This document shows positions 30,624-64,000 of a stretch of 64,000 nucleotides of DNA, in pieces. This DNA comes from Nymphaea colorata. Its lineage: Eukaryota; Streptophyta; Magnoliopsida; Nymphaeales; Nymphaeaceae. The position numbers and the translations under genes are program-made. The notes under the pieces were generated by a model. It saw only the letters and a list, made by a program, of their open reading frames with translations, was not told where the DNA came from and ran no database searches. The DNA is taken from positions 23,336,981 through 23,400,980 of the forward strand of contig NC_045147.1 in assembly GCF_008831285.2 (NCBI RefSeq), given 5' to 3'. The stretch's first letter is position 1; each line of letters opens with the position of its first letter.

Positions 30624-30694
30624 GCGCATCTGGTGTAGTGGTATCATAGTACCCTCCCACGGCACTGACCGGGGTTCGATTCCCCGGATGCGCA
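30624..30694 (+). tRNA. tRNA-Gly(CCC)
   Basis: A 71-nt sequence folds as a cloverleaf. The acceptor stem is GCGCATC/GATGCGC with discriminator A. The D arm is around GTGTAGTGGTATCAT. The anticodon loop CTCCCAC has anticodon CCC after T33. The variable loop is TGAC, and the T arm is CGGGG-TTCGATT-CCCCG. The internal promoter boxes are intact (A box TGGTGTAGTGG, B box GGTTCGATTCC). The anticodon stem GTACC/GGCAC has one A-C mismatch. The first run of five T residues downstream is at 30,750-30,754. It lies 305 bp upstream of the PPR gene, same strand. Confidence 0.93.
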
Positions 30695-47200: not shown

Positions 47201-50200
47201 GCTACATAATCAAAATTTGGCGCTACCATATGGCATTTCAGTACAAATACTCTCTCTCTCCGCCTCCCCCCCCCCCCCCCCCACACACACACACTATTTG
47301 GAACTTTCGTTGACAAGAAGTTCCACTTTGCTATCCCAGGAAAAAGAGTTTGAGGTTGCCAATTTGTCAAACCATTTTAAATGACTAGAAGTATTGAAGT
47401 TACCAATAGGTCATAGGATCACCAAGCTTCTTTTATCCAAATAAATTCTTAAAAATACATCATGGGAAGAAAGGTGCAGGCCATTTGGTCAACGGAAGAT
47501 ACATGCTAAGAACAAAGAGAATTGACTAAAGAGGTCAAGTTTGAAAACAAACCACTCTTGTTATCTCCTCCACCAACTATAAACCAGTTTTCTCCAACAG
47601 TTATGCCTGCATGCCCAGCTCTAGGTGTTGGGATGGTTCCTTGCACTGTCGGTCTTGACCACTCCATCTGCAACGAAATCACCAAAGATAAGTATTACGT
47701 GGAAACGTCTCGTTATATGTATTAGCAGCGATAGTTGAATGCCTCATACACTCTGCAGGTCAAGAACATGCAAATCATTGAAGCATGTAGCATGTGATCC
47801 ACCACCAAATATTAATAAGTAACGCTCTGCATGCACTGCAGCAGCATGATCCGACCTTGGTGAAGGAGGTATGCCCCTACACAATAATCATGGAGTCTCA
47901 AATTAGTCCACATGAATGCTTAAAATAAATACACAAAATGAAAAGTACGCCCTCACAAAAGAAACATAGGATTTGAAATTACACCGAATAGATGTGTAAA
48001 ACATCTCCAGGAAATTAGTTGAAAGCAATTTAGCACCCAAATAAGTTATGCGGACCAACTTACACGGCATCTACTTCATCCCAGGTCATAGTTTCTAGAT
48101 CGAGAATGTGGAGATCATTAAGAAGAGACCTCTTATGATCCTCACCACCAAACATGACCAAACTTGATCCTACAAGGGTAACAGACTGACCCCCACGGGA
48201 AGCCTGGATAGAAGACAGATAAAGTTAGAAGATGGCATCATGACAGTGTATACTGAAGTAGTTGGACACAAAAGAACATCAAACAATTTCATTTTAAAAA
48301 ATGTGAAATATGGTCAATGATTTGTAGGTTATCAAGGTAAATGTGGCCACACTTGTCCAGTGAAAATTGACAGAGAATAGAGAAAAAGTAAAAGAACAGG
48401 TCATGGAAAACTTGTCGTGCATGTAACTATTTGAAACTATCAGCTAAGCTGTTTTATATATGAGCCTTCCATATACAGGAGAAACAAGCACATAAGCCAT
48501 TATTTTGACAATCAGTACATCACTTTATCTTCTAAATCAATATGCAAATACCATCAAATTTCTATAAGCTCCAAGTCCTTTACAAAGTCCTCAACAATTT
48601 AGCTTATGAAATGAAAATTGCCTAATTACATTAAAACTAGCATCTTACACACCGGAGGCTTCCCATAAGTCTTCAAGAACGACCAGGTAGAAGATTGCAA
48701 ATCAAATTCCTTCACTGCCATGAAAGAATAGAAAACAACATGAGCACAAGTTGAAGTTCCCAAATCATACTGAAGCAAACAGACAAACCCAGAATCTTTA
48801 CTTTTACCTGTCACAGATTCAGAAGGATCTTTAGTATGCCCAGCTATGGAAACAAGCTTATTGTCCCATGCTATCTGCAGGGAGGAAAAGGTATAACATT
48901 TATAATTCCAAGCCAAAAATTACTGTTATGAACATAAAAGAAATAGGTAAAGCAGTAAAGAGAACAAAATGAACAGGATTCCAGAATTCCTGTAAAAACT
49001 TACCAGAGAGTGACCTGCACAGGCGGCTAAGGGCACCGAGGATGGAGATTCAGATTCCATCGCCACTTTAAGGTCAAGCTTGGTCCATGTAAATGTTTTC
49101 AAGTCCAGAACCTGTCAACGGCCCATATAAACTTAGTAGATAAGCACCATATTCATAAATGCCAGAAAACAGAACAATAGTGATATCCTCTGGGAAACAA
49201 AATGCACATGAGAAGGAAACTAAATGTTGATGCAATAACCAAAAGGAAGTAATCAAAACCACCATGATACAAATTTCTAACAATTTCTAGGAAAGCAAAG
49301 CAGACGCCAAGCTCCACTACAGTGTCTTTAATATTCTACTACAGTGTCTTTAATATTCTACGATTTGAAGGTCAAACTGGAAGTACCTGAAGTTACTATA
49401 AAAAGCCTGCAAACATAGATCCCGAACAAACAATATACAAGAGTGCCACATAACAAGTTCTGATGCACACATTACTGACTATTTATGGCAAATTGGCAAT
49501 GGATACCTGAAGATCATTAAGATAACGCCCATTGTGGTTTCCACCAAAAATGTACATTTTGTCTTGGATTATAGCAGCTCCATGCTGAACAAGAAAACAA
49601 GCAAGAAATGAATAGAAATTACTGAAAAAATGAATCCACATAACCGAATAAAGATGTCATTGTAAACTAGACCATGTCAGTAGATTGGAGTTTGGACCTC
49701 ATATCGAGCTTTTGGGCATTGACCAGAAACTGAGGGTGCAACCCATTTGTCATAAACACCAACTGACCCCAATACTTCAGAAACAACACCTTTATCCTCT
49801 GTCTCCAACACACCGTTTTCAGCAGGAATAGTTTTTTGCTCTTCATACGAGTTCATATCTGACACAACCGGTTGTTCTGCCGGATTCTACAATTCCCAGT
49901 AAAAAAGAGATCAACCAATGTATGGAAACTTGTGTTAACAAAAAAATACATTAGACAGATTTAATATAACAAACTCATTTTTCTGTACTTAATACCAAAG
50001 CTACTAATTATACTATGAAGAGAAAGTTAATGAGTTACCTAAGGGCCATACGGTCAATAAAATAAATCCTTACCATATGGCCCTTGAATTATTAGAGAAA
50101 TGAGCTAGGCAGCTATGTGACACGGTCACACGGGTACCTTTATTTGGGTGAGGTACCCATGTCGACACAGGTACAGGTATGCCCATGGACATTGCCTGGA

Positions 50201-52747
50201 CACAGTCAAACATGTGTTGGGTGCGGTCAATGCACCCATGGCCGTATCAGTCCTTTTTTTAGACTCAGCAAAGTTGGCCAAGTCCTTTTGGTCCATAATT
50301 AAGTTTTATTAAACAATCGTGTATATATAATGAAATGAAGAGCCTTGACAAAAACTAAAAGGCTGTTCATGTTATCTATTGTCTAACTACACCTATTCAA
50401 CATGATTTTCTGGCGGCAGATAATTTTTCCAGTGACTTGTTTTCTTTAGTATAACTTTCTATATTGTTTTGTTTGTTTAAAATCTTACTTTTAGTTATAT
50501 GTATGTGCATGTGTGTGTGTGACAGTGTCCCAAATTTTTTTAAAGTGCTCCACACCCATACTCATACCAACACCCATACGGACCGTACCTATGTGACACA
50601 GCTAGGCAGTGAGAGATGATCTCATCTCATGACTATGACAACCTCTTATACATGTAATCAATAGCATAACCTACCAAAAAATAAACATGCCCTTTCTGTA
50701 CCAAACCATAATCATACTTTCTCTTTACATACTGCAAAGAACTAAGTGCAATGCAAGAAGCAACTTAACCAAGAGATTTGATGATGATGATGAAAGCCAA
50801 CATCAATGCATAAGATGCTCTCTTTCGGGTGAAAGTAATGCAATAATGATGGAAAGGAGCACATCACAGTTAACTAAGCATAGAAATCTAACAATGCAGT
50901 ATCCGGCTGGCAGCTTTGAGTCTTTGACAAATACAGTATATAGGATGAGGAACAATTAACAAAAATTGTCGTATCTTCCATACTCACATTCATTTCCACA
51001 TCCACAACAGGCTCAGAAACAAATTCAGGAACCCTGGAATACCATGCTGGTTCTTCTTCCTATAGAAGGAAGAAACTACGTTGTCAGCATTAGTCAAATA
51101 AAATAACTGTAACAGTTATTGGATTGTTAACTGCAACCACCTCTAGGATTTTTACAAAGAGGCGCATGGCTTCAGTTTGTGCCATGTTTCCAAGTCCATG
51201 CCAGCTGTAAACAAAATGTAATTTATTGATAAGTAATCAAGTGAAAGCAACAAAAACTATAACTAAGCTACCAGCATATGAAAATATACATGCAACATGT
51301 GGGGCATTTTTGTACATGTGCAGATTGCAATGCACAACAACAATTAAGAAAGGGCTTAAAAGGCACCCATTGCGAAGGACCGGCATTAGATTCCAATCTA
51401 ACTAGTCAAACTCTACAGTATTCCCTTTATGGACGCCTAGCAGTATGGTCCACAGCAAGATAGCCAAATCAGGAGATAAAATAGGAAGTCGCTTGACTTT
51501 GACATAATAAAAATATATATTTACAATTTAAAATGAAATTTTGAGTCTTTGACCGAAGCATATCAACTGTGGTGAAATTGTTACAGGAGTCACGTTATTA
51601 GGTACACAAGCGCGAAAATTTTTTAGCCAAAATTTGTTTCTTCAGTTTCACGTTAAAACTGATGCCCCTTGGGAGAATGCTTCTCAGAACAAGGGAACTA
51701 ACGCCATTGCCTCCTGAAAAAACTTCCTAAAAAGCAAGATTCCCAAGCATCCAGCAACCATGCTTAAAAATCCAAGAATGTCAATGTTTCCTCTCGCATC
51801 CAACCGCTCTACTTTCCATCATACAGCAGACGGAACTTCCTCGTGCGTATATCCTTCCCTTGGCAAGATATCAATTCGATCAGTTGTTAATTGCTGTTTA
51901 GTGACTTATCATGCATTACATTATCGACTGATGATACTCCATGGAAAAAAAAAAACAACAATAAGTCGATGAAATAGAAAACCGAATATTATCAATTTCC
52001 TGGGCATTTTTGCCAACGGATTCGATCCCAAATGGAAAATCATCAAACAATTATGAGAAACGGCGATAAGCACCAAGATCGAAATTCCAAACAAGTACGG
52101 TTTCATTTACCAACCTCGTCCATTTGCTGCTCTCAACAGGACTCCACCCCTTAGGCTTAGGGATTGTGCATGGACCCACGGTAGCCTGCAAAATTACAGG
52201 AAAAAAAAAGGTCGAATCCATTCCATGTTTGTAAGCACGCTAGAAACTTAAATCAGATGAACTGAAACCATACGAGATCCAGATATGATAATCCGCGAGC
52301 GCACCCAATACTAAGAACTACAAAATTCAACAAAACCAGATTCCACATTCCCCTCAGATCTTTGCAGTACCCAATTCACATAATCAAGATCTCACTCAAT
52401 TCTCTCGAAAAGCACCCGTAAAATAGTTCGCAAACACCAATGACCAGACTGATTCACCGCAAATCTAACGCAGTCAACAGAGAACTGTCGTTCCTACGCA
52501 GATTCAGCGAAGAAGGCCACGGATCGTCGCATGATCATCGGATAAAACAATCGAAGACGAACAAAGCGATCGAAATTCTTGCCTGCTGGTAGAGTCCGTA
52601 AAGTAAGAGCGCAACGTCGTTCCGGAAGCGAGAAATTGCAGCAGGCTTGGCGGAACCCTGAGATCCTCCTCCGAAACCTGCGTAGGCGGCCGCCGCGTAG
52701 AACCTCTCAGGGTATGCGAGGCCGGAGCTCGCCCTCGCCATCGCCAT
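44216..52747 (-). CDS. ACBP4: Kelch-type acyl-CoA-binding protein, ACBP4-like, 18 exons
   Basis: Cytosolic acyl-CoA-binding protein that binds long-chain acyl-CoA esters for lipid trafficking. Exons, complement in transcript order: 52583-52747, 52115-52185, 51141-51204, 50988-51059, 49698-49886, 49507-49584, 49004-49111, 48808-48874, 48653-48714, 48064-48203, 47750-47876, 47553-47667, 46570-46658, 46112-46195, 45844-46029, 45609-45764, 45465-45524, 44216-44401. They total 2019 nt (672 aa), every phase closes, and the length is near Arabidopsis ACBP4. The ACB domain (about 12-105) includes YPERFYAAAAY, LLYGLYQQATVGP and EAMRLFVKILEE. Kelch blades (about 185-510) include YIFGGNHNGRYLNDL, LVMFGGEDHKRSLLNDL, LLIFGGGSHATCFNDL and WFIVGGGDN. 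A long coiled coil follows (about 545-650), and the tail is GGVWGWLAGSPP. Introns 1 and 16 use GC donors. Residue 260 is Ala where a kelch glycine is expected. Confidence 0.95.
46917..47247. repeat. Three tandem copies of a 112-bp unit
   Basis: The unit, beginning CTAATACATAA and containing GCTCACATATAGGAATTAG, recurs with exact 112-bp spacing (the shared GCTCACATAT starts at 46,937, 47,049 and 47,161). Each unit holds TTTGGTAGC; copy 1 holds the matching GCTACCAAA 27 bp later, giving a hairpin. It lies in intron 12 of the ACBP4-like gene. Confidence 0.9.
47250..47293. repeat. Compound CT / poly-C / AC low-complexity tract
   Basis: A CT run, then about 17 C residues, then an AC run, directly after the 112-bp tandem array. 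Likely a slippage hot spot. The C-run length may be unreliable in the assembly. Confidence 0.9.
49316..49359. repeat. 2 x 22-bp tandem duplication
   Basis: The unit ACTACAGTGTCTTTAATATT plus 2 bases repeats perfectly twice. It lies in intron 6 of the ACBP4-like gene. Confidence 0.8.
50113..50599. mobile_element. MITE-like element flanked by AGCTAGGCAG direct repeats
   Basis: The 10-bp sequence AGCTAGGCAG occurs at 50,103-50,112 and 50,600-50,609, a likely target-site duplication of Mutator-like length. The ends carry GTCACACGGGTAC (50,125-50,137) and its inverted relative GTACCTATGTGAC (50,585-50,597). No open frame is seen. It lies in intron 4 of the ACBP4-like gene. The exact outer boundary is uncertain because the word CTATGTGACAC occurs in direct orientation at both ends. 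Confidence 0.6.
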
Positions 52748-54404
52748 TGCTTCCTCCCTCTCTTGCAGCCACCAGCAACTCGGGAGGAAAGAGAGAGAGA
52801 TAGAGGAAGAGCGGGGGAGGGAGGGAGATCTCACCGCGGCAACTCCTCTTACTCTCCCATATTGAAGAAAGTGGAAAATATTTATAGTTCGGATTTAAGC
52901 TTTTGTTAACGTCCGCTCTCGTTGTCCGAACTAGTAAACCGACGCCCGGGCAGCGGGTCGGATTCCGTTTAGATTTAGATTTGATTTAATCGGTTCTCGA
53001 AGTGGAGCTTTGAACCCATTTTTCCGACCCGGTAATATCATTAGACGAGCTCTGGACACTAATTTGGATACCAAATCCAATATTTCTCCACGGACCCAAG
53101 ATACTATGGCCAATGGTTTTGAATTTGATATCTAATCCAAATCCAGTTCATGTTCTGATCCAAAACAGGTCCAAGCAGACAAATGGGTCTCTTTTCTCCT
53201 AAAGAACTTGCGAAGCGGTTCTGACGAGATCGGCGCAATAGTATCGGTATTATAGGTGAATCGCTTTTTTTTTTTAAAAAAAAAAACGATACGATTTCTG
53301 ATAGCCAATCTGCATGTGTTTTTATTTAAGACATCAATTAGACAAACCAATATTAACTTAAATTAATTGATATTTGTAGATATAAAAACAAGAAAAACAC
53401 AAAAAAAAAAAATGCAAATGGACCTGTCTCACTTGCTTGAGGTGCCGAAACGGTAAGGCCTGACTGTTGCCGTACACATAAGAGTTACTGTGATTGTATG
53501 CCTGTTAGGGATGATTAAAATTAAAAAAAACTCATTGTTATAAAAAATATAAATTATTATTTAAAACTTAAAAAAATATTAAAAACGACAAATACACGTT
53601 TTTTTGCAACAAGAAAACTACACTGCAATCTAATTCTATCATTATATCAAAGTAAGTAAAAAATATCGGCGTTTAGCACGCCGTAACTTGGTAAACACCA
53701 TTTTTGCTTTCTTTTCTTTGTATATAAAATAAAAGCGGATCCCTACTCCAAAGGAATATGATGCCAATATATTTGCATTTATCTCTAACATTATTTAACC
53801 GTTCAAAAGTAAAACTTCAATAAAAAAAGAAAGTCAAGATCTATACAAGTCAGCATTGCCATATCTAATCTCTCTTGCCTTTTGTACATATATTTAATAT
53901 AACAAAGGGAAAAAAATTAGGTACCACGGCACTATAGTAGCTATGGTTGAGTTGTCCAAAACGATACTTTTTGTGTCAAACCATTTTTTTCCCGGTTCAT
54001 ATTGGCAGAGATGTCAATAGATCATATCATATTCAAATATGATGCATCTTTTACCTTGTTTGATTTATTGGATCTTCATATATTCAAGGTTCAAATATGA
54101 ATCAATAAAGGTGTACATCATTACTTGAATTTGATTTAAAATTCACAATCCAAACCTGGATTTATTTGTGCATATGAGTCCAAATCTAGCTTCTAAATCT
54201 ACTCAATCCGAACTACGTGTGATCATATGTTAAGATTGACTTCTAAAATGCAGGGATATTGGATTCTACCATACTCCAAATCCGTATCCAATGCCGACAG
54301 TGGCGCCGAAATATGGGATGCACCAGGCTATCCGTCCCGAGAAGGGGGATAGCTTCGATATTTCGTAAATTTACACGGGTAGTTTCGTCGTCCGCGAATT
54401 GGTA
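52748..54404. other. ACBP4 promoter and intergenic sequence
   Basis: The first 200 bp hold the 5' UTR and TATA box of the ACBP4-like gene. The rest is AT-rich with no gene recognised. The snoRNA promoter lies at the right end. Confidence 0.6.
52879..52887 (-). promoter_or_regulatory. TATA box of the ACBP4-like gene
   Basis: The minus strand reads CTATAAATA about 130 bp upstream of the start codon. This leaves room for a 5' UTR of about 100 nt. Confidence 0.6.
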
Positions 54405-54413
54405 AAACCCTAA
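54405..54413 (+). promoter_or_regulatory. Telo-box of the snoRNA transcription unit
   Basis: AAACCCTAA matches the plant telo-box, a promoter element common in ribosomal-protein and snoRNA genes. A TATAAA follows at 54,442-54,447, which would place the start near 54,475, about 190 nt before the first snoRNA. Confidence 0.6.
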
Positions 54414-54662
54414 TTCCCCATCTCAGCCTCCGTCTACAATCTATAAACCGCGAATCCCATCTCGCCATTCCTACGATTCTCTATTCGCTCCAGAAGGAAG
54501 CAAAATCTGCCCAAGTTCTCTCCTCTTCTGCTTTTCGTTTTTACTCTTCTTCCTCATCCTCCTTGTTCCTAATCAACGTTTTGTTTTCAGAGGTTTCTTT
54601 CTGTTTTTCTCTTTCCCAATGAACGAGTTTGTTACGAAGTGACTTTCCTTCCGCGTCGAAGC

Positions 54663-54760
54663 GAGGGCGATGATGATCGAAAACTACCTATTTGTTGAGG
54701 GGATGCGATTGGTTAATCATCTCTAGTGATAAAGAAACCAATGGATCCTACTGAGCCTTC
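54663..54760 (+). ncRNA. Box C/D snoRNA, predicted guide for 18S rRNA (snR41/U62-like)
   Basis: A terminal stem GAGGGC/GCCTTC (one G-U pair) encloses box C ATGATGA (54,670-54,676) and box D CTGA (54,751-54,754). A C'-like GTGATAA lies between. The 12 nt CCAATGGATCCT (54,738-54,749) just before box D are complementary to AGGATCCATTGG, which I recall from plant 18S rRNA. By the box D + 5 rule the target is the A in GGAUCC, the position equivalent to yeast Am541, guided by snR41 in yeast. It would direct 2'-O-methylation with fibrillarin, NOP56/58 and 15.5K in the nucleolus. No convincing D' box or second guide was seen. Confidence 0.85.
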
Positions 54761-54818
54761 CTTCTTTTTCTATCTTCATTTATTTTATATGTTTGTTTGT
54801 TTGATCGTTTTGGTATGG

Positions 54819-54900
54819 CCATCGATGTGATGATATTTTTCCCCGGATGCCATGGCAAATGTTGGTTCGGAAAATCAGACTACAATTATCTGATCGATGG
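54819..54900 (+). ncRNA. Box C/D snoRNA, predicted guide for 25S rRNA
   Basis: A perfect 7-bp terminal stem CCATCGA/TCGATGG encloses box C GTGATGA (54,827-54,833) and box D CTGA (54,890-54,893). The 12 nt CAGACTACAATT (54,876-54,887) before box D are complementary to AATTGTAGTCTG, which I recall from the 5' part of plant 25S rRNA. The box D + 5 rule points to the first U of AAUUG. It lies 58 nt after the first snoRNA on the same strand, so both are likely processed from one precursor. I do not assign a published name. Confidence 0.85.
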
Positions 54901-57195
54901 TATCAACATTTTTGTTTTATTTCCTTTTCTGTTTCCTTCTATGCGATACTTTTCCTCCTCGCGTTCCAGGCTTGTGGTATTTTTATCGATCTGTTCAGGT
55001 GTCCAGTGTTTTAGATTTCTAATGCCTGTGATTTTTTTTCTGTTTGCCGTGGAGTTGATTCAAGGCGACCAGTTTCAGAGGCGTTTTAGGTTTTAAATTT
55101 CTGAAGATTGTGTTTTCAGCCTATACAGATAACAGACTTCGGATTCGAAGTGCTATATTTTTGAAACATTCCAAAATTTTATTTTAGTTTATTCTCCCAG
55201 AAGGTTTTGTTAGTCTTCTGTTTTTTGTTTTTCAACATTTCGTCATTCGCCTTAGACAGAAAATTTCAGAAAGTAGATTTGTCATTGTGACATGGAAGCA
55301 GAAATAGCTTTGGGTGGAAAAATTCGGCAGAAAAAGTTGTTCATGGAGTGCTTGTTCATCCCTTGGGTTTGACAGAAGACATAAGCATGGAGAAACTGAG
55401 GGACATTCACATTCCTGAGCATGAAACGAGTCAAACGTTTGGCTTTTTGAAGGGCCACTCTCAACTGAAGGGTGTTTTTTCAAAAATAAATATCTCAACT
55501 TCTGTATGAAATTGTCTTAAATAAATTTTAAAAAATTATTTTATCATAAAAACTCCAAGAAGATTAATGTTGAAGAAAACATAAAAATTGATATTCTCAT
55601 TTCTCTCACGCCTCCACTGAACAAGATTTCCTGTTACCATAAGACCAAAGGAACCGCCGGTGGGATATGAGAAGACGTTATGATTCGGTTCTCTAATGGA
55701 GGCAACCAACAGACAGAATGAACGCTCAACATTATCTTGGAGCAACTATTTGGTTACATGCTTTTGGGGTGCCAGGAGCGGGACGCCATGTTCCTCGCGT
55801 CACGGAACAGGATATCAAACGTTCTTCGGAACAGCAAGTCCTAGGGCTTAGGGCTGCAGAGGGTTGAATTGTGAATGGGAGTTTCCAAGTCAAGTCTGTC
55901 TTTTATCGAGCTCATCTAACTACACATTGGAATCAAACAGCTATTCTGCAGGAAAGTTCTTGCGCGTTGAAATCAAACAACTACAGTAGAGTTCAAAAAT
56001 TTTGTGTATTCCATCAAAGGAAAAAAAAAAGTTCATGGGTAATTTGTCAATGATAAAAGGACGCCTTCAAGCACTGAACATCATGAATGCCATATAAATA
56101 GAAACAGGAAGGCATTGGTTCAACTTTGCATGGGAGCCAACAAAAATTGGAATCCAACTTACTGTTTGTGTAGAAGCAGACAGCGAAGAGAAGAGCGTGG
56201 AAGACGACGTCTACAAATCCTACTCCGAGGAAAAAGCGATACCGAATAGAAAGTAATTTGCAGGCGCCGTAGCCATTTTGCATGGACAAAATATGACTCC
56301 CTTGGTTGATTGGGTACCCCATGGATGGGCGACCTTTCAGGTCCTTCAACTAGGCTTTCAGGTCCTTCAACTAGGCTTTCAGGTCTTTCAACTAGGCTTT
56401 GTCCAATTAAGTTTTCATCTGCTTTAAGTGATGATTCCATGTAGTGCCTACTCTGCTTAGAGAATATTGTCGAGGGGCTCAAGGATAAACTGCTGCGGCA
56501 TCTAAGCTGCACTGGAACCAGCCCTGTCCCCTTTATGAATGATAGATGTAACGGTTGCCACCTTCACCTTATTAACACAGCTCAGCAACAAAAATTCTTG
56601 GTATGATTATCGATGTATTCTCATTATGTACATAGAAACGTGTGGTCCAAGCTGTTAGATCATACAGACAGGTGGTGACTTGATTTGGATGCTATGAAAA
56701 CCAATGAACTAACCTTGGTTTAGATCTTCCACCACAGAAGTCGAAGGCATTATATTGTTATTAGTCTTGGTATTGGCTATGTATTGGTTCGTTGACGACA
56801 TACATTGGCTGGTATGCTATGATAATGACGCAGAAGTCACACCAGCATGCAGGCCACAGTATAACTGCCTGTTCATCCCGTGGATCAAATTTTGGCAACA
56901 TATAAACTACCAGCTCAACCCTGAAACAAACTGCCAACATTATATATCCAGGGGCACAGCATTTCTACACAAGAAGCATAAGAAAACAACAAACATACAA
57001 GTAGTCACAAACGAGGAGCCAGTAGGAGTTTTGTAGAGGACTTCACATCCCATTTTTATTATACCGAAAAATCTCCACTCTCAGTTAGCTCACTAGCAAG
57101 TAATCTAAACTGGATGTCCCTCCCGAGGTGCTGATACAAAATTGAAAGCTGTTATAGAGAAAAACTTGGAAAAGAATCTCACAGGAAATCTCTCT
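54901..57195. other. Intergenic after the snoRNAs
   Basis: No third C/D box RNA was found. A 6-bp hairpin ACTTCG-GATT-CGAAGT lies near 55,136. A 3 x 21-bp tandem repeat is at 56,335-56,400. Open frames on the minus strand at 56,047-56,512 are described among the findings. The right end should hold the 3' UTR of the NDUFAF4-like gene. Confidence 0.5.
56335..56400. repeat. 3 x 21-bp tandem repeat
   Basis: The unit TTTCAGGTCCTTCAACTAGGC repeats about three times, with one C-to-T change in the third copy. On the minus strand it keeps frame and would encode SLVEGPE repeats. Confidence 0.9.
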
Positions 57196-58636
57196 CTACC
57201 TGCTCTCGTCCGTGCTGCCTTCACTGGAACCTTCAGGAGGGAGAGAGAGATGCTGCAGAACTCTCTGAACATGAACCACGTCAATTTTTAATGTCTCAGC
57301 AATAGCTTTTGCATCCATAGGTCTACTTTGACCATCTGCTTTGCCTTCGTGGAAAAGGAAGACCTGGCGCAGCTTAGCAATGTTAAGCGTCCCTGGGGGG
57401 ACAGCTTTTTGTTCATCATAGCCAGCTCCAGGCTTTGTATCCCGTAGTTTTGGCATAGGTCTATTATATCTCTGTACAACTGATGCCTGCAGAAAGGACA
57501 AGCTGATTACTAATCCAAGAATAGGACCCGTTGAAGACACTGATCATAGCAGTCACAAAGCTTGCCAAACCGTATCAATTTGTAGAAGGCATCCACATAC
57601 AAACAGATTTCACACCTGAAAGCAAAACACTAATGGTCCAACTAATATGAGAAAAGTTCATAGAACATCATCGGTTTCAGCAAGTTATTTTGTTTTTCTA
57701 GGAGAAATCTTGTCGAAATCAAGAACAAAGGGGTAAAACGATTAAAAACCGTACAGTTTTCTCCAATTTGGAACAGCCACAGGTCATCCAAATCTGACGA
57801 GTGACAGTATCCATGTCCCAGTTGGGGAGGCAGTTTACAGTACAGCACATTTCTATGAAAGAGGACATGTATGGAGTTTTCAAAAAAATTCAGGAGAAGT
57901 GAAGACATTGGAGACAACAGATAGAAAAAGAATGACCAAAGAAAACAGAGAAGAGAGAGAGAGAGACTGACACCTTGTTGCCAACAACTGACACACTTTC
58001 AGGAATAAATCTTGCAGCATCCTCGAACAACCAAGAGAAACATGACCGTGCCCAAGGACCACTTACATCCTCATACCAGATACACATGTGCAGAGGTGGA
58101 CAGATATGTTTGAGAGCTCATGTCCTCCCAAAAAGAACATCTATTGCTATATTTGAAACAATATTTTAGGCTTCACATCCTAGAACTTAAGCTTTCTTCT
58201 TCTGCCACAGGCATACGAAAGATACAGCTTTTTAGTGAAAAGAAGTGCAAGGGCTTTAAGGGTATGATGTTGTAACAAAAATAAATCAAGAAAAAAAAAA
58301 GGAAATAAAAAGAAATGATGGAAGTGAGGACATATCCTCCGGATGCTCAAGCTTTCTGCAGAAAGAATTAGCAAGCAATAGCAAACAGCATGAAATAAAC
58401 TGAAGGATAGATCATGGGATGAATTTCAGATATCCTGCATCTTCTTCTACCCTTCAGAAAGTAAATATATACAGATGGCTAGGCTAGTGAAGCCACTAAC
58501 ATGGTCTTCATTGAACAGTCCAAGGTTCAAGAAGAGCTCTGCAACAATATCAGATAAGAGCAACTGTTGGCTGCAAACAAAAGCAGATGCTGGTGTGGCA
58601 AGGTGTTTTATATATGTGCACGTGTGTGCGTATAAA

Positions 58637-58677
<41 letters not shown>

Positions 58678-61485
58678 TACACACACACACACATATATAA
58701 AGGAAATATATGCATTTGAATTAGAGTGTAAGTATAGTAATAATCAATTTTAACAGCCGAACCAAAAGCACACCTGTTGCGCCCCCAACCCCAGTGTGGC
58801 AGCCAATTTGCGACCCCCATGTAGCACAGCATACAAGATAAAAGGCTTTTTGAAATATACAAACCAGATAATTCATAGTATGTTACTCTCATTCCCCAAT
58901 CAGCTTGAAATATTAACAAGAGGCACCAATGCCATATGAATAACGGGATATCATCCCTCATCTTCAGAAGGTCAGCAACACTAGTCAATTTACAGTCCAA
59001 CTATGGATACATGCACAAAATTTTGTTTGATTGCTTAGAGTAACAAAGTGAGTAGAAGACAAAGTGCTGGAACTCAAATCCAAAATAAGGTGAGATGGTA
59101 CCACATATGCATCTGAATATGGCCTTCCCCTCAGTCATAGATGGCACAGTGTTATACAGAGAATAAAATAGAGTCAAGTAATCAAGCACCACATTCATCA
59201 TCACAAGTTCAGACTCTCATGCTTTCAGTTCTACAAGTGGTAAAATGTGCTTAACTCTGGGACTATGAATTCCAAATATATAGAACGGATCTCCTCCCAC
59301 TTGGCTGGTGCATGTATGAAGGTCGTCAAGCACAGGCATCAAACGGTCATCTCTCACGGGCCAATACACATAAAACTGGCCCCAATGCCACATTCACACG
59401 CACGCGCTATGTCACATAGGTACAAGTACGGGTACAGGGAAGTGGGTACGGGTACGACATTTTCATCAATCTTGGTACGGTGGTACAGCGATAGTTATAT
59501 ATTTTTAATTAATTATATACATGAAATCAGCAAAAAAAAGTAACATAAATATAAGAAACAGATGCCATGTTTGCTGGAGATATGTTGTATGAAGGTAAGG
59601 AAGAAGGAGGAAGAGGCGTCAGGCAAAAATGGGTTCATTTAAAGTGGTTTGGATCAGTTCTAACTCAAAACCGATCCGAACCGTACCAAGGCGCACCGCC
59701 ATACCATCATACCGGTACGGGTATGTGAGCAAAACCCACATACCCGTGTGACGTTGCATGCACGTAATGAAACCAGCCAAGTCTCTCTCAAATCAGACAC
59801 AATGACATAACACTGGTCAACTCCATGAAACCACACACACTTGCTGGCCGACAGGCCGACTAGTTCGAAGCATGGAATAAAGTTTTCAACTTTTTATGCA
59901 GTCCTTCATTTTTTAGGGTACATGAACAACATCAAGTAAGGCATCAACGAATAAATATATAACAATCTAAATTTTTAGAGTAGATGAACATCATCAAGCA
60001 ACACACAGACAAATGTATATAAGTAAAGGGAAACAACAGGTTACAGACTTCTAAAACCTCACCTCTCCCATTTCCGGTTTGCCACCAGGCTTTGAACTGA
60101 TCCTTCCCACCATTTGTCTCAGCATTGCATCATATTCTGGATCTCTTTCTTCCAGTACAGAAGATTCACTTCTATTCTTTGATAAGGACTCTGCGAACAA
60201 GATGAAAGTATCGATGTGTCTCAAGTCAGGATCAGAATTAGTATGGCAATTATAAGCTTTAATGTGTCAAATTGTCAATATCAATAGGTTTAAAGTTTTA
60301 AACCTACAATACACGTTGTCTAATTCCTCTAAACATCAGCCAATTCTTTAATTGATTGGTATCGACAAAACTTCATATATCATACAAAAACTCAATGGTC
60401 ATCCATCATATAGCTATGTACGTATAGGAAGCAGAAAAGGCAACGGAATAAGTTCTCGTTTAACAAAACTTAAATTTCTGGAAGTTGAATTCAATGAAGT
60501 AGCATAAAACATTGCACGTCTGAATGATTCAATTAAAGAGTCATAAAATAGACGAACCACCAAACCTGTGAGTCCAATATCTCCTCCAGAAGGAAGCTTC
60601 TGAGGAGAACGCAAGAAAATTAGCACAATATTACGTAGTTCCATCACTTCCAAGCTCGAAATATAGATTCTTTAGATGAAATAAAAAAAAGACTTCTAGC
60701 AATCGTGAAGCGCAATATCCATACCTTGGACTCACATTCGTAACAGCTTTTTCTATACGTCGATCCCGTATGCGGCAAAGTAATGAGGTTGCGACCAACA
60801 ATGGAGAGGCGGAAAAAAAAAAGCTAAAGAACTAATCGAACTAAAGAACAAGTGACTGCAATCATTTTCCTATGAAATAAAAACCAGATTTAGACGATTT
60901 CGCAAAATTCAGAATAATTCTACTCAAACCCAACTTTCAAATGCTCATTGAATAAAAAAGACGACCGCGATCATCAGTCTGCATTGTGGTGATCATGTGA
61001 CGGCGGTAGCAGTCGTTTGAATTATACTATGTTCAACTACCACTTTTTGGTTCTAAGAGAAGCAACGAAGTTGCAGTATATAGGAAGGACAACCATTATT
61101 GCTGAACCCACTTTGACTTCTTGTGGCTGTGTTCATGGCCACTTGGACATTGATGATCATTAGTGAAGTAGAACTAAACCATAGTTGACACCGGAATCTG
61201 GGATTAAAGCAAACGCCCAAACTCAGTGAGGACGATCACAGAGACCCGCAAAAGATCAAGAAATTTCAATAGAGAAAAGGATCAAAGAGCCACAAAGGTA
61301 GCAGGTGAGAAATGCAAACAGGAATTTCACACACCAGCATCTGCAGCGGCACCAAATCGTACTTCTTCTCTTTTGGGCAATTCCGGCTTGCTCGCGACGA
61401 CAACTCTCGGCCGCTCGGTCTTCCTAGACGGGTCGAGGCTCGGAGGCCGACCCTTTCCGATTGCTCTGCGCAGCGCTTGGCCCAT
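57196..61485 (-). CDS. NDUFAF4-like mitochondrial complex I assembly factor, four exons
   Basis: Exons, complement: 61333-61485, 60566-60599, 60063-60190, 57196-57486. They total 606 nt (201 aa), phases consistent. The short N-terminus MGQALRRAIGK, a basic patch with KP (SRKTERPRVVVASKPELPK), a central DPEYDAMLRQMVGRI segment, and a C-terminal block resembling the helical end of animal NDUFAF4 (GTLNIAKLRQVFLFHEGK, DAKAIAETLKIDVVHVQRVL) support the call by pattern. In animals NDUFAF4 works with NDUFAF3 early in assembling the membrane-matrix junction of complex I. Gly2 could be myristoylated. Exon 2 is only 34 nt. Intron 3 is 2.6 kb and carries a microsatellite and a MITE-like element. The exon model is firmer than the function, which rests on remembered family pattern. 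Confidence 0.7.
58635..58697. repeat. Compound (AT)n(AC)n microsatellite
   Basis: AT repeats pass directly into AC repeats, inside intron 3 of the NDUFAF4-like gene. The Cys-Val and Thr-His repeat open frames across it are artefacts. Confidence 0.95.
59411..59752. mobile_element. MITE-like element, relative of the one at 50,113-50,599
   Basis: The left end GTCACATAGGTAC and the right end CATACCCGTGTGAC are inverted relatives of each other and of the ends of the element in the ACBP4-like gene. The body has repeated ACGGGTAC words near both ends. No open frame and no clear target duplication are seen. It lies in intron 3 of the NDUFAF4-like gene. Confidence 0.5.
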
Positions 61486-63162
61486 TATCTAGGTATTCCG
61501 GTGCCGGAAAATGCCTCGAATCATGTCGGGAACTTGTCGTGTTAAGGCGTCGGATGAACGCGTACGGCAACACTTGGTGACTGGTTCGACTCACTTCGAC
61601 ATGTTGGGGGAGGGACAACTCTAGGGCGTGGCGCTTGTGGCCGCTTGAGAACTCTCGCCTCTTCGTGGCGTGGTCGTATTTAGGCCACGCCTGGAATTGG
61701 TAAAACATTTTCCTAGGAAAACGATTCGAGGAAAAGAAAAAAAGAACAGCTTGAGAAAATACATCTTCATGTCTGGAAAATTAGAAGTTGATATGAGACA
61801 ACCCATGGACAACTAAATCAATTAGCATTATGTTTGGATGTAAAACAAAGTCATGTCAAAGCAAGGCATGACAAGTAAATCATGAACCTTGTTTTTCTTG
61901 TTATTATTTAGAATACGAAGGATGTTTTATGGTGACAGTCAAAATTTTAATGAAAAATTCAGTTTAAATAAAACGACATTTTAAAAATTGCAGAACTTGC
62001 CCCCAATTTTTTTTAACATAAAAACATTGTTTACTTCACAAAAAATAGTTAAAAACTACCAACTAAACTCAGCATGCACTGTTATTCGTGGGGCTTTCTG
62101 TGCAAGTACAGACTAAATTCACTCATTTACGACCTAAAGGTCGGCCTCTCGTTTCCTTATGCTTTTTAAAAATACTTTTGCACAGCTTCCTAGTTTTATA
62201 ATAACGAAAAATGTGAAATAAATAGAAAGAATAGATTGTCCGTCGGTCAATATGTACAGTGTTTGATTCTGTCGGGTTAAGTCCCGATCGCCACTCATGT
62301 TTTCACGCCAATTGGTCTTCTGAGGACCTTTTTGCATGTTACGCTGAGCTCGAAAACAGTGGAACTTTATACGCCGGCTCAATCACGGAATATTTTTTGA
62401 CGTCACTAATTACGTTTAATTTATTCTTCTTCAATTTCAAAACCAAGCAATTCATATTCGTCATAACGACGAGAAGAGGCCCGTGAGTTATTTAGTTTTC
62501 CGATTTAAGTTTCAGCTTTGTTGATTAACTAGGCTTGCGCATTTTAACGTTTATTTAGGGGAAACCATTTTTAGCATAAGACTTAGGGAGACACAATAGA
62601 TCATTCAAAATAACTATAAATTGTTCCTAAAACCACCAAAAACTGTCCCAATACTATAAACAGCTGCCGCCAATGTGAATGTAATAACGGTTTTTTCTTA
62701 ATAAATTTTAAAGATGAGATTCATGAATGTGTCGGACACAAGGTTTGCAAATTTATAGTCTAATCTTTGCATTTTTCAGACATATGGCTACAGATTTTCG
62801 TTAAAAAATAATAATATAAATTTTTTCACCTCCAGTCAATGTATGATGAAGAACGAGACGCTCGATTCCTTCGTGAAGGCTCAGGAGGCCTAGCAGCAAT
62901 TCCGGAGTTGAAGTTCCGGATGGTCGCAATTTGACAAATATTGATCACTATTTGTTAATAGCCGGAAAAGAGAGGCGTTTATCAAAATTACCAGGGAAAA
63001 AGGCAACGGCCCCACCGCAGGGCTTCAAGGGTAGGTGGAGACTGGAGAAGGAAAAGACAACCGGGGCAACGGGAAATTCCTGGTCCTATAAATGGCTTTT
63101 CCGGGAAGCAACCGACTTCCCGCGATGCGAGGGAGCCGGAAGGACCCCTGTCCGACACTCTC
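61486..63162. other. Divergent intergenic region (bidirectional promoter space)
   Basis: 1.7 kb between the start codons of the NDUFAF4-like gene (minus) and the MTPC1-like gene (plus), so it holds both promoters. The ends are GC-richer; the middle (61,850-62,850) is AT-rich. No gene is recognised inside. Confidence 0.6.
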
Positions 63163-63501
63163 ATGGGCTCAATCCTGCTGGGTCCCATCAGCCGCCGATC
63201 TCTCTCCATCTGCCGGCGAGCCTACGTCTCTCCCGACCGCTTCGGCGGCCTCCACCACCACCCCGGCATCTTCCCGCCGCTGCCACCACCACCGCCGTAT
63301 GATGACCACCATCACCATTTGAAGAGCAGCCGGAGGTGGCACGTCGGTCACTCCCACTCCCATGGTCCAGGCGACAGCGAGGGCGTCTTCAAATTGGGCC
63401 TCGCCGCGGACGTCGGCCTCGCTGCTGGGAAGGCCATCACTGGATACCTTTCCGGCAGCACGGCGATCATCGCCGACGCCGCGCACTCGGTTTCCGACAT
63501 T
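63163..63501 (+). CDS. Metal tolerance protein C1-like CDF transporter, first exon only
   Basis: First exon (113 codons, phase 0) of a cation diffusion facilitator. It is followed by a GTGAGT donor; the gene continues past the window end. The N-terminal part is basic (GPISRRSLSICRRA), suggesting an organelle presequence. It is followed by His-rich stretches (HHHH at 49-52, HVGHSHSHG at 60-68). The start of the CDF domain reads VFKLGLAADVGLAAGK, then GYLSGSTAIIADAAHSVSDI, with the HxxxD metal-site motif at H108 and D112. This matches plant MTPC1/MTP6-group proteins, whose metal (Mn, Fe, Zn or Co) cannot be read from one exon. The rest (63,502-64,000) is intron sequence. Confidence 0.85.
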
Positions 63502-64000
63502 GTGAGTGGTGACCCTAATCGGCTTTCCTTACCGTACTTCCGGTTTTTGCGTTTTATCTTGGGTCTTGGGTTCGTTTTGTGGTTGGATGTTCGATGAGCT
63601 TTGGGATGGATACAATTTCTTTGCTCAACTCCATTTTTTAGCTTCTTGGTTTCTTCTTCCCGATGGAAGGTGTTGAATTCGTAGGTTGGTCCTCTGGAAG
63701 TATCAGTCCCCTGTAACCGTGTCTGCTATTGCAAATGACAGGCGTCTTCCGAACCATTATGATAAATTGGGGTGTCCATTTTTATTTGTACATTCCTATC
63801 AATCCATGATCACGTTACTGTGATGAATGAACTGCATCAATCATGATCTTCCTCGAATCTGAGTTTAATTTCAGTGTTTTTTGGTGAATATTTGAACAAT
63901 CTAGGCGAATTTTGTTTACTGATCTATAAATGAATAAATGTACCTTCATTTGCAGACTGTTCATCTAATATTGATATTTTATATTGTTGTCATTTTTGTA

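Follow-up and report, generated by a model that had tools for sequence, protein, structure and literature searches.

The Nymphaea segment analysed here (64,000 nt; "the window") contains two box C/D snoRNA genes arranged head to tail on its + strand, the first at 54661-54761 and the second at 54820-54899, with a gap of exactly 58 nt between them. They are a genuine and ordinary tandem pair, and each is a new member of a known plant C/D snoRNA family. Run with default settings on the full 64-kb window, Rfam gave three matches, two of which are this pair; the E-values given below refer to that scan, i.e., to 64 kb searched against all Rfam families. The promoter elements, the two genes and their parts are as follows.

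54405-54412, + strand: telo-box AAACCCTA, 256 nt upstream of snoR41
54442-54447, + strand: candidate TATA box, TATAAA, 219 nt upstream of snoR41
54661-54761, + strand: box C/D snoRNA snoR41 (RF00205); Rfam 46.6 bits, E 2.1e-5, gathering score 40
54670-54676, + strand: snoR41 box C, ATGATGA
54684-54694, + strand: snoR41 D' guide CTACCTATTTG; 11 bp (one G-U) to 25S 1068-1078, selects U1072
54695-54698, + strand: snoR41 box D', TTGA, directly after the D' guide
54738-54749, + strand: snoR41 D guide CCAATGGATCCT; 12 bp to 18S 537-548, selects A540
54751-54754, + strand: snoR41 box D, CTGA; the D guide ends 1 nt upstream
54820-54899, + strand: box C/D snoRNA snoZ155 (RF00326); Rfam 53.3 bits, E 1e-5, gathering score 43
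54827-54833, + strand: snoZ155 box C, GTGATGA
54876-54887, + strand: snoZ155 D guide CAGACTACAATT; 12 bp to 25S 142-153, selects U144
54890-54893, + strand: snoZ155 box D, CTGA; the D guide ends 2 nt upstream

Both matches exceed the gathering score of their family and run over the full length of the model (positions 1-97 of RF00205 and 1-81 of RF00326). Each RNA has a box C of the form RUGAUGA, a box D CUGA, a guide just before box D, and a terminal stem, which consists of 6 bp in snoR41 and of 8 bp, one outer pair being G-U, in snoZ155. No other pair of C and D boxes closed by a stem of 4 bp or longer was found on the + strand from 53.9 to 57.3 kb, and our search of this interval for additional C/D snoRNAs with boxes and stem gave none. 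The folding energies of snoR41 and snoZ155 are unremarkable (z-scores of -1.5 and -0.4, respectively), which is usual in C/D snoRNAs and is no argument against them. The original prediction, made by reading the DNA unaided by databases, had two tandem C/D snoRNAs at this place, 58 nt apart, with canonical boxes inside terminal stems, and all of this is borne out by the Rfam matches and the box analysis. Its lengths of 98 and 82 nt are close to, though not the same as, the approximately 101 and 80 nt given by Rfam. The expectation that open-reading-frame annotation would miss the locus holds, but Rfam detects both genes at default thresholds.

The targets were sought in ribosomal RNA of the same genome, represented by a 651-nt fragment of 18S (contig C21) and a 5' fragment of 25S of approximately 1.5 kb (contig C11). 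The 25S piece, a truncated relic in which some positions are substituted, serves as a proxy for the expressed rRNA; even so, the three guides of the locus all fit. In the region C11:22794000-22800500, the 25S rDNA relic ends after about 1.5 kb and is followed by sequence that, judged by eye, resembles a retrotransposon polyprotein. We took the partner of the fifth base upstream of the D or D' box as the selected nucleotide. Both D guides are perfectly complementary to the same-genome rRNA over 12 bp, and among the 500 CTGA sites on both strands of the window only those of snoR41 and snoZ155 reach this length against the rRNA pieces, the next best having 10 bp. The 12-nt antisense element that had been proposed near box D of each RNA is thus found in both. 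The proposed targets likewise agree with alignment to the same-genome rRNAs: one guide selects A540 in 18S, at the expected equivalent of yeast Am541, and the other selects U144, in the 5' part of 25S. The third guide of the locus, the D' element of snoR41 directed to 25S U1072, was absent from that account. A D' guide of at least 9 bp in snoZ155 was not found against the same-genome pieces of 18S (651 nt), 25S (5' ~1.5 kb) and 5.8S.

In Arabidopsis numbering, which was checked by base identity at neighbouring Nm positions, 18S A540 is A545 and 25S U1072 is U1067, while the number of U144 is unchanged. The A of the GAGGA motif falls at position 541 of yeast 18S, and A540 is equivalent to yeast A541. 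Two of these nucleotides, A545 and U1067, have been assigned to Arabidopsis SnoR41Y, and U144 to SnoR36 (PMC8053127 Table 1); 2'-O-methylation has been mapped at all three in Arabidopsis, tomato and tobacco (PMC11542601 Table 2), and A545 is equated with human Am590 and yeast Am541 (PMC11542601). The three predicted nucleotides therefore coincide with mapped plant Nm sites, and it is at these positions that methylation would be expected in the present species.

Comparison with known snoRNAs gives a consistent picture. The Nymphaea snoR41 agrees with Arabidopsis SnoR41Y and Rfam family RF00205 (clan CL00068) in its boxes, its two guides and their targets (18S A545 and 25S U1067), and on the rRNA of its own genome its D guide indeed pairs at Am545 of 18S and its D' guide at Um1067 of 25S. 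Relative to the RF00205 consensus, 11 nt are inserted between its D' and D guides, and the part preceding the D' guide is 5 nt shorter. SnoR41Y carries no mark of multiple gene variants in PMC8053127 Table 1, and the Nymphaea gene also appears to be single-copy (see below). AtsnoR41Y has been placed beside human U62a and yeast snR41 (PMC3511168). The second RNA shares with Rfam family RF00326, snoZ155, the same D-box guide and the target U144; Arabidopsis SnoR36, which guides modification of the same nucleotide, is likened to snoZ155 by target alone.

We consider that the locus is a dicistronic plant snoRNA gene, started from a telo-box/TATA promoter and guiding three rRNA sites, with a probability of about 0.9. 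In such a gene, snoR41 and snoZ155 would both be part of a single RNA polymerase II precursor, whose synthesis probably begins at the promoter around 54405-54475; the two RNAs would be excised from it, have their ends trimmed back to the terminal stems, and be packaged with fibrillarin and its partner proteins. The former would then direct 2'-O-methylation of 18S A540 and 25S U1072, and the latter that of 25S U144.

The telo-box and TATA box claimed upstream of the pair are both present, at 54405 and 54442, and a transcription start is inferred near 54475. Telo-boxes occur six times in the 64-kb window, against 2.5 expected from shuffled sequences, so a single one is weak evidence when taken alone. 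A published survey found this element at 92% of the Arabidopsis non-intronic snoRNA loci and at 54% of the independent clusters in rice; 34 of the 37 Arabidopsis non-intronic loci with a telo-box also have Site II or TEF1 (PMC3022908). Of these companions of the telo-box in polycistronic snoRNA genes, Site II (TGGGCY) is absent from both strands at 49126-61478 (about 12 kb), and the TEF1 box from the + strand upstream of the pair, at 53400-54660. The Nymphaea locus thus resembles plant polycistronic snoRNA clusters with telo-box/Site II promoters in having two different tandem C/D snoRNAs downstream of a telo-box and TATA, and differs from them in that Site II and TEF1 were not found; co-transcription of the two RNAs is a prediction here. 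It is conceivable, albeit doubtful, that the combination of snoR41 with snoZ155 in a single gene, whose promoter has a telo-box and no Site II, is a cluster arrangement that has not been described before. An imperfect hairpin (54300-54372, -24.4 kcal/mol), present in a single copy in the genome and having no Rfam match, is found just upstream of the telo-box.

The alternative that survives best, even though we regard it as unlikely, retains the same snoRNAs, targets and telo-box promoter, and derives the RNAs from an intron within a longer host transcript, either non-coding or with the intron in its 5' leader. Telo-box promoters also drive genes with intronic snoRNAs in rice and Arabidopsis, and 28% of rice snoRNA loci are estimated to be intronic (PMC3022908). 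Since the element occurs on intronic-host genes too, it fits a promoter of the ribosome-biogenesis type for RNA polymerase II and cannot by itself separate independent from intronic transcription; moreover, acceptor-like CAG sites flank the pair on both sides. Against a host gene, a search for protein domains in the three + frames of 54400-57196 found none, so that no protein-coding host was detected, and the leader (54440-54660) has no strong splice donor of the GTAAG, GTATG or GTGAG type, although these observations are compatible with a weaker donor and with a non-coding host. The lack of a protein domain together with the lack of a strong donor favours independent transcription. The proposal that the pair has its own telo-box promoter and no intronic host is plausible and likely: the telo-box and the TATA box speak for it, and the missing Site II and TEF1, as well as the occurrence of telo-boxes on intronic hosts, count on the other side.

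Each of the two Rfam families has one match above the cut-off in the 408-Mb genome (783 contigs), and no further copy of the 921-base locus was found in it; both snoRNA genes appear to be single-copy in this assembly, which has gaps. Patterns made of a guide and box D have one extra genome match each for the 18S guide and the U144 guide, and chance alone would give about one (2 strands x 408 Mb x 5 spacings / 4^16), so that these matches are at chance level. This applies to the 18S pattern match at C3:1933742 and to a would-be second U144 guide at C3:11120033, where only the letters of the guide and CTGA are seen, and no C box with a stem. Apparent further copies of the D' guide pattern are also explained by chance, as there are seven of them and eight for the reversed control. 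That the two genes are decayed or silent, with functional copies residing elsewhere, is very improbable, as every box, both stems and the three guides are preserved and no other copy exceeds the Rfam cut-off in the gapped assembly. As for a fortuitous resemblance to C/D snoRNAs, the shortness of the C and D motifs would invite it, but two independent tests contradict it to the point where we give it practically no credence, namely the Rfam E-values over 64 kb and all families, and the rRNA complementarity, in which the pair gives the two best of 500 CTGA sites, at known methylation sites.

The mechanism and the snoRNA families are already established; what the locus adds is correct annotation of what appear to be the genome's only copies of the guides that serve three conserved methylation sites in plant rRNA. 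One of these sites (yeast 18S A541) is common to plants, yeast and human. Single copies would simplify a knock-out test.

Elsewhere in the window, a tRNA gene is located at 30624-30694 on the + strand (RF00005, 56.8 bits). On the minus strand, an open reading frame at 52535-52894 resembles the beginning of an acyl-CoA-binding protein, although its Pfam match to ACBP is weak (E 0.16), and its transcription would point away from the snoRNA pair; another, at 57196-57543, weakly matches UPF0240 (E 0.012) and is convergent with the snoRNA transcript. The open reading frame at 62962-63597 has a cation efflux domain (PF01545, E 6.9e-07).
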